From the NCBI GenBank assembly GCA_945907245.1, contig CAMDTB010000001.1:62001-126000 (forward strand): DNA of 64,000 nucleotides, written 5' to 3'. The notes under the pieces were generated by a model, which was given only the letters and a program-made list of their open reading frames with translations, did not search any database and had not been told where the DNA came from. Below, in pieces: positions 41,582 through 45,958 of this stretch. Position numbers and translations under genes: made by a program. The DNA is from Rhizobium sp. Q54. GTDB taxonomy: Bacteria; Pseudomonadota; Alphaproteobacteria; SMXS01. Within the stretch, counting starts at the first letter, position 1. Each line of letters begins with the position of its first letter.

Positions 41582-41884
41582 ATGCGGTACCTTACGTTCG
41601 TTTTCATCATGTTGGCTTCATCCTCCGCGCTTGCTGCGCCCGAGGGCGCCTGGGTCTGCCGGTACAAGGACCCGAACCAGAAGCAGACCGTGCGGCTGGA
41701 CTTCGCCGGCGGCGGGCTGACGGTGGATCGCGGAATCGGCGGCGTGCCGGCAAAGAACGCGGACATCACCGACGACCGCGTGACCTGGAATGACGGCGTG
41801 ACGTTCGCGTTCTTTCCCCGGGAGAAGCGGATGACCCGCACCTCCGCCAGCGGCACCGACGATCTGGTCTGCATCAGGGGCTAG
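41582..41884 (+). CDS. Small secreted hypothetical protein
   Basis: This 100-residue protein has a clear signal peptide (MRYLTFVFIMLASSSALA, cut before APEGAW), giving a mature domain of about 80 residues with two cysteines (WVCRYKD and DLVCIRG) that could form a disulfide in the periplasm. I recognise no family. The gene ends within CTAG, which also supplies the stop of the convergent msrB. A small hairpin GGCGGT...ACCGCC (41543-41564) lies upstream. The 200 bases between it and the tRNA contain no supportable gene. Confidence 0.6.
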   Translation: MRYLTFVFIMLASSSALAAPEGAWVCRYKDPNQKQTVRLDFAGGGLTVDRGIGGVPAKNADITDDRVTWNDGVTFAFFPREKRMTRTSASGTDDLVCIRG

Positions 41885-42387
41885 GAAGGGGCATTCGCGG
41901 GCCTGAAGGTCAGCGACAAACCATTCATGCAATACCGCAGCCCGGTCGGCTTCGGCCCATCCTTGAACACATGCCCGAGATGGCCGCCGCAGCGGCGGCA
42001 ATGCACCTCGGTGCGCACCCATCCGTGAGCATAGTCCGGCTTGGTTCTAACGGCATTCTCCAGCGGCCGGTAGAAGCTGGGCCAGCCGGTGCCGCTGTCG
42101 AACTTGGTTCTTGACGAGAACAGCGGCAGGTCGCAGCCGGCGCAGAAGAACGTGCCGACGCGCTTCTCGTGGTCGAGTGGGCTGCTGCCCGCCGGTTCCG
42201 TGCCCTCGTGGCGCAGCACCCGCCAGGCGGCATCGCCCAGTTGCGTGCGCCACTCGGCGTCGGTCTTGGTGACCTCGAAGACTTCCGCTTCGGTTTTCGC
42301 CAGCGAGCGGCCCGCGCCGATCACCCCGAACAGGGCGAACAGGCCGGCGCCGCCGAGCAACACGGATCGTCTGGTATGCATGGCCAT
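41881..42387 (-). CDS. msrB: Peptide-methionine (R)-S-oxide reductase, exported
   Basis: This enzyme reduces the R-epimer of methionine sulfoxide in oxidised proteins. The 168 residues start with a twin-arginine-like signal (HTRRSVLLGGAGLFALFGVI), so the enzyme probably works outside the cytoplasm. The MsrB domain then shows FCAGCDLPLFSS, FDSGTGWPSF, HCRRCGGHLGHVFKDGP and RYCMNGLSLTF, with the catalytic cysteine in RYC and the two CxxC zinc pairs. It follows msrA at a short gap. The pair is transcribed from a promoter that matches the ECF pattern seen for the divergent operon. Confidence 0.93.
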   Translation of the reverse strand: MAMHTRRSVLLGGAGLFALFGVIGAGRSLAKTEAEVFEVTKTDAEWRTQLGDAAWRVLRHEGTEPAGSSPLDHEKRVGTFFCAGCDLPLFSSRTKFDSGTGWPSFYRPLENAVRTKPDYAHGWVRTEVHCRRCGGHLGHVFKDGPKPTGLRYCMNGLSLTFRPANAPS

Positions 42388-42391
42388 GCTC

Positions 42392-43090
42392 CTAGCGGGC
42401 GGCGACCAGCACGGGCTGGTCGCGGTACTGGGTCGGGAACATCCGCTTCAGGTTGGCGACCTTCGGCAGGTCGTAAAATGCGATGTAGCTGTTGTCGGGG
42501 TGCCTGGTCGCGTAATCTTGGTGGTAACTCTCGGCTGGCCAGAACCTGGGGGCGGGCTGCACCTTGGTGACGATGGGCTTCGAATAGACCTTCGCCGTGT
42601 CGAGCTGGGCGACATATGCGGTCGCCACCTTCATCTGGCTGTCGCCGCTGGTGAAGATCGCCGAACGGTACTGGGTGCCCCGGTCGGGTCCCTGCCGGTT
42701 GAACTGGGTCGGATCGTGCACGACCGAGAAGAAGATGCGCAGTATCTGACCGTAGGACACCTGCTTCGGGTCGAAGGTCACCTTGACCGCTTCCGCGTGG
42801 CCCGTCCGGCCCGTCGTGACGTCGTCGTAGCTCGGCGATCTGGCCGTGCCGCCTGCGTAGCCAGAGACGGCGCTGGTGACGCCTATCGTATGCTGGAACA
42901 CCGCCTGCACACCCCAGAAGCAGCCGCCGGCGACAATCGCGGTTTCCGATGTCGCGGTCGACGGCGTGTCGAGCGAGGGCGGCGGAATGGCGACTGCCTT
43001 TTCGGCGGCTCCAGCGGGCACCGCGCTCAGCGTGGCGACGGCCAGCGCCGCGGCGAGCAAACGGGAAAGCGGACGAATGGATCGGTTCAT
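42392..43090 (-). CDS. msrA: Peptide-methionine (S)-S-oxide reductase, exported
   Basis: This enzyme reduces the S-epimer of methionine sulfoxide. The 232 residues start with a Sec signal (MNRSIRPLSRLLAAALAVAT, likely cut after AGA), then the MsrA domain: AIVAGGCFWGVQAVFQHTIG with the catalytic cysteine in GCFWG, GYAGG, HAEAVKVTFDPKQVSY and RGTQYRSAIFT. GGAGAG precedes the ATG. It is the promoter-proximal gene of the msrA-msrB operon, and a GTAACC-N16-CGAATG promoter lies about 50 bases upstream. An exported MsrA beside an exported MsrB points to repair of envelope proteins. Confidence 0.94.
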   Translation of the reverse strand: MNRSIRPLSRLLAAALAVATLSAVPAGAAEKAVAIPPPSLDTPSTATSETAIVAGGCFWGVQAVFQHTIGVTSAVSGYAGGTARSPSYDDVTTGRTGHAEAVKVTFDPKQVSYGQILRIFFSVVHDPTQFNRQGPDRGTQYRSAIFTSGDSQMKVATAYVAQLDTAKVYSKPIVTKVQPAPRFWPAESYHQDYATRHPDNSYIAFYDLPKVANLKRMFPTQYRDQPVLVAAR

Positions 43091-43137: not shown

Positions 43138-43165
43138 CATTCGACGGACGACGCCCGAAGGTTAC
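43138..43165 (-). promoter_or_regulatory. ECF-type promoter of msrA-msrB
   Basis: On the minus strand, TGTAACC (with GTAACC at 43165-43160) is followed 16 bases later by CGAATG (43143-43138). The predicted start of transcription lies about 40 bases before the msrA ATG. The same pattern appears on the plus strand before the divergent operon that encodes an ECF sigma factor. The pattern agrees with what I recall of the Caulobacter sigma-F consensus. Confidence 0.72.
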
Positions 43166-43211
43166 AGTCCGTCGCCATTTCGGCCCCACGAGAAAAAATC
43201 TGTGACATAGT

Positions 43212-43240
43212 GTAACCCACAGACCCGCTTCCGGCGAATA
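43212..43240 (+). promoter_or_regulatory. ECF-type promoter of the cytochrome b/molybdoenzyme/sigma operon
   Basis: TGTAACC (GTAACC at 43212-43217) and CGAATA (43235-43240) are separated by 17 bases. Transcription would start about 30 bases before the ATG at 43276. It mirrors the msrA promoter, with 46 bases between the two -35 elements, so one sigma factor could fire both. Confidence 0.72.
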
Positions 43241-43275: not shown

Positions 43276-43926
43276 ATGTCCGGCGACGCCAAGCCCAAAC
43301 CAGTCGCTTCCGAACCGCGAAAGCGCCGCGCCATCCATTCTTCTATCGTCCGGCTGACGCATTGGATCAACGCCGCGGCGATGGTCGTCATGGTGACCAG
43401 CGGATGGCAGATCTACAACGCCTCGCCGATTTTCGACTTCAAGTTCCCGGCGTGGATGACGCTGGGCGGCTGGCTGGCTGGCGCCATTGCCTCGCATTTC
43501 GCGGCTATGTGGGTGCTGGCGATCAACCTGCTGGTTTATTTGGTCTACGGGGTGGTCTCAGGCCATTTCCGCCGCGACCTGCTGCCGATCACGCCGGCCG
43601 GCGTCTGGCGCGACACGAGGGCGGCTCTGGCGTTCCGGCTGCCGCACGCGCTGGGCCGCTACAACGCGGTGCAGCGGCTGCTCTATGCCGGTGTCATCGC
43701 GCTGATCGTGCTCGTCGTCGTTTCGGGCCTTGCCGTCTGGAAGCCGGTGCAGTTCCAGACGCTGACGTGGCTGATGGGCGGCTTCGACAGCGCCCGCGTC
43801 GTCCATTTCTTCGCGATGGCCGGCATCGTCGGCTTCTTCCTCGTCCACATCCTGCTGGTCATGATCGTCCCCAGGACGCTGGCGCCGATGATCGTTGGCG
43901 GTACGGCCCCGGAGGCAACACCATGA
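43276..43926 (+). CDS. Cytochrome b/b6-type membrane electron-transfer subunit
   Basis: This 216-residue membrane protein has four or five segments and probably carries two b hemes. Candidate heme ligands are the histidines in SSIVRLTHWINAAAM, ASHFAAMW and ARVVHFFAMAGIVGFFLVH. It resembles the cytochrome b561/thiosulfate reductase type rather than the longer MsrQ with its flavin domain. The next gene overlaps by ATGA and encodes a molybdopterin enzyme, so it most likely passes quinol electrons to that enzyme. GGGGAAA lies upstream of the ATG. Confidence 0.82.
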   Translation: MSGDAKPKPVASEPRKRRAIHSSIVRLTHWINAAAMVVMVTSGWQIYNASPIFDFKFPAWMTLGGWLAGAIASHFAAMWVLAINLLVYLVYGVVSGHFRRDLLPITPAGVWRDTRAALAFRLPHALGRYNAVQRLLYAGVIALIVLVVVSGLAVWKPVQFQTLTWLMGGFDSARVVHFFAMAGIVGFFLVHILLVMIVPRTLAPMIVGGTAPEATP

Positions 43927-44681
43927 GCCTGATCCGGCCGCCACGGTCGTCGCTCGACGACCTCAAGCCCGAGCTTGTCGACCTGGAGCGCCGGCTGTTC
44001 CTGCGCGGCAGCCTGTCGCTGGGCGCGCTCACCATGCTGACCGGCTGCAACTTGGTCGAGGGCAATTCGGTCGACAAGGCGCTGCTGGCCATGTCGCGCT
44101 GGAACGACAAGGTGCAGGCCTGGCTGTTCGATCCGAACAAGCTGGCGCAGACTTACACTAGGGCCGACATCACCACGCCGTTTCCGTTCAATGCGTACTA
44201 CGGGAAATCCCGCGCGCCCGCCGTCGACGGTGCCGCATACAGGCTGGAGGTGTCGGGCCTGGTTTCGGACCGGAAATCCTGGACCGTCGAAGAGCTGCGC
44301 GCGCTGCCGCAGGAAAGTCAGATCACGCGGCTGATCTGCGTCGAGGGCTGGAGCGCCGTGGGCGAATGGTCGGGCGTGCGTCTCGGCGCCTTCCTCGACC
44401 GCATCGGCGCCGACAGTCGGGCGCGCTATGTGGGCTTCAAATGCGCCGACGGCTACTATTCCGGCATTGATATGGCTACGGCGCGCCATCCGCAGACCAT
44501 CCTGGCGCTGGATTTCGGTGGCGGAGCGTTGCCGCGGGAATACGGCTACCCCATGCGGCTGCGCATGCCGACCAAGCTTGGGTTCAAGAATGCCAAGCAT
44601 ATCGCCGCCCTGTTCGTCACCAACGACTATCCGGGCGGTTATTGGGAGGACAAGGGCTACAACTGGTTCAGCGGTTCCTGA
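43923..44681 (+). CDS. MsrP/YedY-like molybdopterin oxidoreductase with Tat signal and lipobox
   Basis: This 252-residue enzyme of the sulfite-oxidase fold has the molybdenum-binding cysteine in LICVEGWSAVGEWSGVRL, at about residue 139. The N-terminus carries a twin-arginine motif (ERRLFLRG, residues 22-29), a hydrophobic stretch and a possible lipobox LTGC (Cys42), so it may be a Tat-exported lipoprotein. Related enzymes reduce methionine sulfoxide in periplasmic proteins, or other S- and N-oxides. The pairing with a cytochrome b gene, the adjacent exported MsrA and MsrB and the shared promoter type support an oxidative-repair role, though sulfite chemistry is not excluded. Confidence 0.83.
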   Translation: MSLIRPPRSSLDDLKPELVDLERRLFLRGSLSLGALTMLTGCNLVEGNSVDKALLAMSRWNDKVQAWLFDPNKLAQTYTRADITTPFPFNAYYGKSRAPAVDGAAYRLEVSGLVSDRKSWTVEELRALPQESQITRLICVEGWSAVGEWSGVRLGAFLDRIGADSRARYVGFKCADGYYSGIDMATARHPQTILALDFGGGALPREYGYPMRLRMPTKLGFKNAKHIAALFVTNDYPGGYWEDKGYNWFSGS

Positions 44682-44699: not shown

Positions 44700-45323
44700 A
44701 TGCAGGCCGGTATCCTTAGCCTGGAGTCCAGCGCGCTCCGCGCCATGGGAACCAGCTGCGTGGACAGACGGGATCCGGACCAGGCCGACCGCCGGCTCGG
44801 CGGGCTGATGGCGTCGGCGCAGGCCGGCGACCGCGCTGCCTATGATACCTTGCTGCGCGAGTCGGTGCCGATCATCCGCGCCGCAGCACGCGGGCGTGGC
44901 GTGGCGCCGGATGCCGTCGACGACGTGATCCAGGAAACCTTGCTGACCATCCACCGGGCCCGGCACACCTATGATCCCGGACGTTCCTTCCGTGCCTGGC
45001 TGCGCACCATCGCAGAGCGCCGCGCCATCGACCAACTGCGCCGGCAGGGCCGCCTGCGGTCGCGCGAAGTCCATGACGAGGCCGCCTACGAAACCCATCC
45101 GGACACGACCCCGGAGCCCGCCGCCGAACTGGACGCCGGTCTGTGCCAGGCGATCGATGGCCTGCCGGAAGGCCAGCGCCAGGCGGTCGAGGAGCTCACG
45201 CTGAAGGACAGGTCGCTGGCCGAGGCCGCCCAGGCGACGGGCCGCTCGTCCGGCGCGCTGAAGGTCAACCTCCACCGGGCGCTGAAAACGCTGCGCGCCC
45301 GATTGTCGGGGGAGGAGGGCTGA
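44700..45323 (+). CDS. ECF-type RNA polymerase sigma factor
   Basis: This 207-residue alternative sigma factor has region 2 with AVDDVIQETLLTIHRARHTYDP and FRAWLRTIAERRAIDQLRRQ, and region 4 with AIDGLPEGQRQAVEELTLKD followed by LAEAAQATGRSSGALKVNLH. ATG at 44700 gives an N-terminal extension. ATG at 44745 is a possible alternative start. The next gene starts within its stop codon (TGATG) and encodes an NrsF-type anti-sigma factor. The order matches sigma-F/NrsF pairs. It probably transcribes its own operon and msrA-msrB through the twin TGTAACC promoters. Confidence 0.9.
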   Translation: MQAGILSLESSALRAMGTSCVDRRDPDQADRRLGGLMASAQAGDRAAYDTLLRESVPIIRAAARGRGVAPDAVDDVIQETLLTIHRARHTYDPGRSFRAWLRTIAERRAIDQLRRQGRLRSREVHDEAAYETHPDTTPEPAAELDAGLCQAIDGLPEGQRQAVEELTLKDRSLAEAAQATGRSSGALKVNLHRALKTLRARLSGEEG

Positions 45324-45958
45324 TGGCGCGTTCGACCGAAAACCTGATCCGCGAACTGGGCGACGGACTGACGCCGGTACGCCGCATCGCTGCCCCCAAC
45401 TGCCTCGCGCTGCTATGGCTGGGCTTCTCCGTGCTGATCGCGGCGGGTCTCGCCGTCGTCTTCGGCGTGCAGGCCGGACTGGCAAGGCTCGGCTCCACCC
45501 CGGATATGTGGCTTGCCGCGCTAGGCTCCCTGCTCACCGCGGTCCTTGCCGCCAAGGCCGCCTTCGAACTGGCGATGCCGGGGCGGTCGCGGTTCTGGGC
45601 GCTGTTGCCAGTTCCCGCGCTCCTGCTGTGGATCGGGGCGAGCGGCATGGGCTGCCTGCGCACCTGGGCGACGGCAGGCTGGGATGGCGGCGTCCATACG
45701 GAATGCCTGATATCCATCGTCGGCATCTCCGTACCGCTTGCACTGGCCATGATCGTCATGCTGCGCCGGGCGTTTCCGCTCCATCCGGCGTTGACGGCCA
45801 TGCTTGCCGGCCTCGCCTGCGCGGCCGCGTCGGCCACCGTGCTCAGTCTCTTCCATCCCGGGGACGCCGCGGCCGCCGATCTCGCCTTCCATGCCCTGGC
45901 CGTGATGGTCGTCACGGCTATCCTGACCATCTCCGGGCAACGGCTGCTGCGGCGCTAG
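45323..45958 (+). CDS. nrsF: NrsF-type (DUF1109) integral-membrane anti-sigma factor
   Basis: This 211-residue protein has a short cytoplasmic N-terminus (ENLIRELGDGLTPVRRIAAP) that should hold the sigma factor, followed by about six membrane segments. Two cysteines on the periplasmic side, in GMGCLRTW and HTECLISIV, sit where DUF1109 proteins conserve a pair. In Caulobacter NrsF such cysteines are reported to sense heavy metals (recollection). It overlaps the sigma gene by TGATG. It would hold the sigma factor inactive until an envelope oxidant or metal signal arrives. Confidence 0.86.
   Translation: MARSTENLIRELGDGLTPVRRIAAPNCLALLWLGFSVLIAAGLAVVFGVQAGLARLGSTPDMWLAALGSLLTAVLAAKAAFELAMPGRSRFWALLPVPALLLWIGASGMGCLRTWATAGWDGGVHTECLISIVGISVPLALAMIVMLRRAFPLHPALTAMLAGLACAAASATVLSLFHPGDAAAADLAFHALAVMVVTAILTISGQRLLRR

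Follow-up and report, generated by a model that had tools for sequence, protein, structure and literature searches.

The window, that is the whole stretch of 64,000 bases that was analyzed, holds two predicted promoters of the ECF16/sigma-F type that lie back to back between two operons, one for two putatively exported methionine sulfoxide reductases and one for a cytochrome b, a molybdoenzyme, an ECF sigma factor and an NrsF-type anti-sigma factor. Very probably, one stress regulator turns on the repair of oxidised proteins outside the inner membrane through these back-to-back promoters. In the model that we propose, and that we consider highly probable as a whole, the ECF16-type sigma factor (gene at 44700-45323) would recognise the divergent promoters at 43139-43166 and 43211-43239, and would be kept inactive by NrsF (45323-45958), an anti-sigma factor in the membrane. 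Envelope stress would perturb cysteines on the periplasmic side of NrsF, and the sigma factor would be freed; the most likely inducers would be thiophilic metals, for instance copper, or oxidants, for instance hypochlorite. The freed sigma factor would then drive the exported MsrA and MsrB to the left, the pair of b561-type cytochrome and MsrP-like molybdoenzyme together with its own gene and nrsF to the right, and, on a different contig, an operon for bufferins. In the predicted regulon a single sigma factor would govern copper-binding bufferins along with MsrA/MsrB and the MsrP-like enzyme, which has a b561-type partner. As to the activity of the promoters, the identity of the sigma factor, its inhibition by NrsF and the inducer, the model follows published relatives. 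It is built on the motifs, their conservation and gene-specific distribution, the gene identities and the residue pattern of NrsF, as observed here. The features are:

41881-42387, minus strand: msrB, predicted exported methionine-R-sulfoxide reductase, 168 aa (PF01641, E 9.2e-46; TIGR00357 above cut-off)
42392-43090, minus strand: msrA, predicted exported peptide methionine-S-sulfoxide reductase, 232 aa (PF01625, E 4.8e-60, with a query that carried one extra upstream codon)
43139-43166, minus strand: predicted ECF16/sigma-F-type promoter of msrA-msrB (-35 TGTAACC at 43160-43166, 16-base spacer, -10 CGAAT at 43139-43143)
43211-43239, plus strand: predicted ECF16/sigma-F-type promoter of the cytochrome b-molybdoenzyme-sigma-nrsF operon (-35 TGTAACC at 43211-43217, 17-base spacer, -10 CGAAT at 43235-43239)
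43276-43926, plus strand: b561-type membrane cytochrome b, 216 aa (PF01292, E 4.7e-21)
43923-44681, plus strand: MsrP-like molybdoenzyme (Oxidored_molyb), 252 aa (PF00174, E 2.9e-30)
44700-45323, plus strand: ECF sigma factor, 207 aa (PF04542 and PF08281, Sigma70_r2/r4); a later ATG at 44745 is possible
45323-45958, plus strand: NrsF-type anti-sigma factor, 211 aa (PF06532, E 7.4e-25)

The twin sites and the genes beside them

The first-pass annotation had pointed to twin TGTAACC-N16/17-CGAAT sites, and a pattern scan of both strands for TGTAACC-N{15,18}-CGAAT agrees with it, giving exactly two matches in the window where 0.01 are expected; none of 100 shuffles yielded two. The two sites are arranged with their -35 elements towards each other and their -10 elements on the outer sides. 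From the 3' end of the left motif to the msrA ATG (43090) there are 48 bases, and from that of the right motif to the cytochrome b ATG (43276) there are 36, so that the sites do lie at promoter distance, as had been claimed. The likeness to the Caulobacter sigma-F pattern, which the annotation had pointed out, is exact when compared with the published GTAACC-N16-CGAA (PMC3511200). When measured by the ECF16 promoter consensus (T/C)GTAAC-N17-CGAA, equal to GTAACC-N16-CGAA and taken from PMC8315932 and PMC3511200, the left site is exact and the right site is one base longer.

The comparison set consisted of six other genomes of the same genus (G001-G006; the own genome is G000). Four of them (G001, G003, G005 and G006) have both sites and all six genes in unchanged order. 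G002 retains only sigma-nrsF, which is preceded by a site and lacks msr neighbors, and in G004 (78% complete) no relative of the window sigma factor or NrsF was found. When the intergenic stretch was aligned for five genomes, the own one and the four relatives with both sites, invariant columns made up 22 of 24 in the motifs and 48 of 165 elsewhere (Fisher p = 4e-9); selection seems to have preserved both sites in the genus. Each site specifies twelve bases and there are matches elsewhere without an assignment, so a chance match is conceivable; yet the low expected count in the window, the retention of the sites in four other genomes and the column conservation lead us to reject this origin, whose probability is close to nil. 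Immediately 5' of the right -35 box, at 43200-43210, there is also a conserved block that is TGGCATGA-like in the four relatives and reads TGACATAG in the window.

The right-hand spacer is 17 bases in the window versus 16 in all four relatives, and control of the own operon is therefore the less certain half of the model. It may be that only the left promoter works, that the 17-base spacer weakened or killed the right one, and that the sigma operon is transcribed from another promoter with autoregulation lost. In our class survey many longest-spacer matches fall within the reading frame of the sigma gene and seem spurious, which would fit such a loss; we nevertheless judge it unlikely, as both hexamers are perfect, the flanking block is retained and published spacers vary (N14-15 with a degenerate -10 for Bradyrhizobium EcfF; PMC3420878). 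The claim that the sigma factor controls its own operon and both msr genes is thus very probably right as a regulatory reading, and weaker for the own operon with its spacer of 17. Self-control of this kind is already on record for an ECF16 sigma factor.

The back-to-back arrangement of msrA-msrB and the sigma operon was also borne out, by Pfam and by start-stop overlaps. Because the cytochrome b and molybdoenzyme genes overlap start-stop (ATGA), as do the sigma and nrsF genes (TGATG), the right-hand genes look like one transcription unit. MsrA, whose gene has AGGAGAG as ribosome-binding site, shows a signal peptide, so that its export is suggested by the N-terminus, and a single cysteine, Cys57 in GGCFWG. 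MsrB has a Tat-like signal (RRSVLLGG), CxxC pairs at 82/85 and 130/133, a further Cys153 and the RYCMN motif. Both proteins have their family domain together with the catalytic cysteine motif (GGCFWG and RYCMN). With no cysteines beyond these (one in MsrA; the two CxxC pairs and Cys153 in MsrB), both exported enzymes probably need an external thiol donor.

The molybdoenzyme has a twin-arginine signal (RRLFLRG) at its N-terminus, and a lipobox-like LTGC comes after it. Its Cys139, in ICVEGW, aligns with RMRCVEAW of the PDB entry 1xdq and is the predicted Mo ligand, so that a CVE-type motif and a Tat signal are both present. The entry is named 'bacterial sulfite oxidase', and we take it to be E. 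coli YedY/MsrP. Among NCBIfam models MsrP (NF003767) is the best match, with E 4.3e-26, while the 92 bits are below the equivalog cut-off of 207, and for this reason the protein is called MsrP-like only. The partner found beside it is of the PF01292 b561 type and not the MsrQ-type haem protein expected for MsrP; from operon and family the cytochrome b is likely the electron donor to the molybdoenzyme. The low score, the partner type and weak matches to the SoxC and SorA models would also suit a sulfite dehydrogenase or other oxidoreductase, and the right operon would then not serve protein repair. We hold this to be rather unlikely, given that MsrP is the best model, that the catalytic motif aligns with that of 1xdq and that the pair is arranged together with msrA and msrB in five genomes.

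The sigma factor has regions 2 and 4 only and adjoins a DUF1109/NrsF protein with six transmembrane helices, as expected of an ECF16 system. The best NCBIfam models for it are generic sigma models, below their cut-offs except for the ECF superfamily model. No second relative of it was found in the own genome at E <= 1e-20.

The predicted regulon in the genus and the class survey

The first-pass annotation had proposed a scan of the whole genome for the same motif, and had called the locus a self-contained module and an msr regulon. In the own genome GTAACC-N16/17-CGAA occurs at nine places. Open frames and codon composition were inspected by eye, and on this basis three are plausible, the two in the window and one before bufA; the other six have no convincing gene start just downstream and most are in coding-like frames. 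A search with one mismatch added four further places, three of them inside long open frames of coding-like composition and the fourth (L187) near a contig end, while the reversed control gave three matches. The site before bufABC is a perfect sigma-F-type site on contig C47 (L066/L085, G000:C47:22064-23345). At L066 the families PF10048 (DUF2282 precursor), PF05114 (MNIO enzyme) and PF09836 (DUF2063 partner) follow in this order, which is a bufferin operon, with bufC partial as the locus ends inside the gene. Since this perfect site is on another contig the module is not self-contained. The regulon predicted from these matches would have three promoters in the own genome, those of msrAB, of cytochrome b-molybdoenzyme-sigma-nrsF and of bufABC at G000:C47:22064.

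Genus-wide, YGTAAC-N17/18-CGAAT matches at 34 places versus 7 for the reversed control. Twenty of them precede regulon genes: ten are in the divergent pairs and one is before sigma-nrsF of G002, and the others are before bufA (two), DUF1223 genes (four), redoxin genes (two) and the gene of a methionine-rich peptide (one). The remaining 14 have no regulon assignment, which, together with the 7 matches of the reversed control, counts against the regulon model. Four of the 34 matches came without a locus, namely the pair of G001 (two), its buf site (one) and one on C6 of G005 that was left unread. The distribution is gene-specific: among the 14 msrA-like genes of the genus the site is upstream of all five orthologues of the window msrA versus none of the nine others. 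DUF1223 was found in four genomes and has the site upstream in all four; the exported redoxin has it in both orthologues (a 29%-identical paralogue in G005 was left out of this count); and bufB, the bufferin enzyme gene, was found in three genomes, with the operon preceded by the site in each, once as CGAAA. The DUF1223, redoxin and buf families were confirmed by Pfam with one member each, and no Pfam family matched the methionine-rich peptide. With sites before bufABC in the own genome, and before DUF1223, redoxin and the methionine-rich peptide in relatives, the term msr regulon proves too narrow.

The four DUF1223 proteins (L074, L059, L075 and L067; about 1501-2276, site oriented +) are exported-looking and have a CSSC motif, which suggests a role in envelope thiol chemistry. 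DUF1223 and the redoxin are candidate thiol donors where they are present; in the own genome an orthologue of neither was found. They may supply electrons to exported Msr enzymes that have one cysteine only, and so bear on a gap in the understanding of periplasmic MsrA/B. In G006 the methionine-rich secreted peptide gene (L048, about 1501-1962, site oriented +) lies with its own site just behind nrsF; it is absent from the corresponding place in the window and is similar to genes for methionine-rich scavengers that were described for Brucella. The regulon would in this way combine several means of repairing or scavenging methionine in the envelope, with the peptide route in one relative.

Another ECF sigma factor or a transcription factor could also use the sites, with the sigma/NrsF pair being merely a neighbor. 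This is very unlikely in our view. For the Caulobacter sigF promoter, Kohler et al. (PMC3511200) report possible recognition by a further factor, but the own genome has a single ECF16-like sigma at the threshold given above, and in the incomplete G004 no ECF16, DUF1223, bufB or orthologous msrA was found and one unassigned match remains. We keep the sigma factor of the right operon as the probable reader of both sites.

To see the locus in a wider frame, 289 genomes of the class were surveyed for all NrsF places above the family cut-off, with their flanks, some of which are short as contigs end early. A bufA or bufB relative is found within 5 kb of nrsF in 26 of the 56 non-genus loci and an msrA or msrB relative in 6; one (in G300) has the molybdoenzyme/b561 pair, and none has this pair with an msr relative too. 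A site of the looser form YGTAAC-N16/18-CGA occurs within about 300 bases of the sigma start in 30 of the 56; this motif flag was unused for the genus rows because the site there precedes the cytochrome b gene and not the sigma gene. In G104 an exported-looking msrA-msrB cluster is divergent from sigma-nrsF, and at one non-genus locus (L181) DUF1223 is divergent from sigma. At L153 of G019 the ECF16-NrsF pair, with an NrsF of CxxC type, adjoins msrB, behind which lies a large membrane protein that by the look of its sequence resembles DsbD (about -3400 to -1170 from nrsF).

An internal promoter in the sigma genes of ten distant loci was considered and rejected as a coincidence of the coding frame. 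In L146, L147, L148, L153, L159, L160, L163, L164, L167 and L173 an in-frame peptide (VTE, VTN, VTS or VTA) mimics the motif about 230-350 bases before nrsF, and this coding stretch is a trap for motif scans.

The cysteines of NrsF

The AlphaFold2 model of the window NrsF (mean pLDDT 91.6) has six long helices of membrane-spanning length. The two conserved cysteines known from Caulobacter (C131/C181) and Bradyrhizobium (C129/C179) are not both present: between 45653 and 45856, Cys128 is the kept first cysteine, His178 replaces the second and another cysteine stands at 111. Position 178 is taken as Caulobacter C181 and Bradyrhizobium C179 from its spacing of 50 to the first cysteine. We aligned 62 NrsF proteins (61 loci and the window; four matches below the family cut-off and locus L043/G041 were left out, and G001 and G006 were added). 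A single-query NrsF scan of the contigs had given only two loci. The position of Cys128 is a cysteine in all 62. For the second cysteine there are three arrangements: 28 proteins have it at 178, another 28, the window protein included, have it at 111 and always with His178, and in the last 6 it makes up a CxxC with the first; cysteines at both 111 and 178 were found in 0 of the 62. In the tree the 28 Cys111 proteins and two CxxC members make up one clade of 30 with support of 100/98. As the Cys111 proteins fall in one supported clade, the relocation looks like a single event that was long maintained.

In the model Cys111 is within helix 97-118, Cys128 is at the start of helix 126-148 and His178 is just after helix 155-177. 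Closeness was judged from these helix positions, and the three residues would be on the same face, predicted to be the periplasmic one, if the N-terminus is cytoplasmic. L142, an NrsF with its cysteine at 178, gave a similar AlphaFold2 model (pLDDT 93.8). No PDB fold relative of NrsF was found at E <= 0.001, and no PDB sequence match at useful E-values.

In Bradyrhizobium the response to H2O2 depends on C179, and the binding of sigma on C129 (PMC3420878), so the exchange of the second cysteine should change the sensing of NrsF. That the window NrsF is without the second cysteine that matters in Caulobacter and Bradyrhizobium counts against the regulon model. As this loss is common to a clade of 30, we read the protein as a family variant that would work alike, though not as the Caulobacter type. 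One possible option, which we offer as a tentative idea and lean against rather than toward, is that NrsF senses through a periplasm-facing cysteine pair whose second member has moved, and that the window clade is a distinct sensor in which helices 3, 4 and 5 enclose a Cys2His site, attuned to copper or reactive chlorine and coupled to bufferins and the repair of methionine sulfoxide. If true, this would require pair chemistry (a metal site or a disulfide) and would run against the 2012 argument versus an intramolecular bond in Caulobacter. The relocated cysteine offers a natural experiment on stress sensing in a little-understood anti-sigma family; no announcement of it stood among the literature matches listed, and the available parts of the reviews PMC7464077 and PMC9751292 have nothing on NrsF.

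Comparison with known systems

The predicted regulon is close in content to that of Caulobacter crescentus sigma-F/NrsF, which shares the promoter type, the NrsF anti-sigma factor, bufferin-type operons and a YedY/MsrP-type enzyme (PMC3511200, PMC8224329). Its regulon is induced by Cr, Cd and Cu, the bufferin-type operons and the MsrPQ genes are copper-induced and the sigF mutant is copper-sensitive (PMC8224329, PMC3511200); such genes make copper-binding bufferins (PMC12452194). With copper-induced operons of this kind in the SigF regulon, copper would be at least as likely an inducer here as the unspecified metal or hypochlorite stress that the first-pass annotation had suggested for a check. 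Caulobacter differs in that, by the available part of PMC3511200, neither msrA homologue is sigF-dependent, which counts against the regulon model, and sigF shows no strong autoregulation, which counts against control of the own operon here. By gene number its MsrPQ genes are outside the sigF operon, and its NrsF has Cys131/Cys181 versus Cys111/Cys128/His178 in the window.

Bradyrhizobium japonicum EcfF/OsrA, also ECF16, controls peptide methionine sulfoxide reductases, one of them predicted to be periplasmic, from GTAAC-type promoters, and EcfF is autoregulated (PMC3420878). There the msr genes are away from the sigma locus by gene number, the targets include a thioredoxin and a DsbD-like protein (PMC3420878), and the window NrsF has no counterpart of the sensing Cys179. 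In Brucella melitensis, BcrS/AbcS has an adjacent MsrPQ-type operon, bcrXQP, with TGTAAC/CGAA promoters, and this BcrS-controlled operon is HOCl-induced (PMC8315932). It differs in combining a methionine-rich peptide with MsrQP, without MsrA/MsrB in the account available, and in having the sigma gene outside the reductase operon (PMC8315932); a methionine-rich gene with its own site is a likeness of the relative G006 only. The Sinorhizobium ECF16 sigma factor RpoE7 reads such promoters, and its targets were unresponsive to the stresses tried (PMC6180224, as far as the available part goes). Haemophilus influenzae RpoE2 is an ECF sigma factor linked to msrAB and hypochlorite stress (PMC7907618), and one of Neisseria is linked to msrAB (cited in PMC3420878); for these two the likeness rests on the msrAB link and not on ECF16/NrsF membership.

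It is already known that bufferins and a periplasmic methionine-sulfoxide reductase belong to the Caulobacter SigF copper regulon and that exported MsrA/MsrB are under an ECF16 sigma factor in Bradyrhizobium. The locus is a member of the known ECF16 family and not a new kind of system; its exact gene combination is seen in its genus only, among the genus and the 56 non-genus loci.
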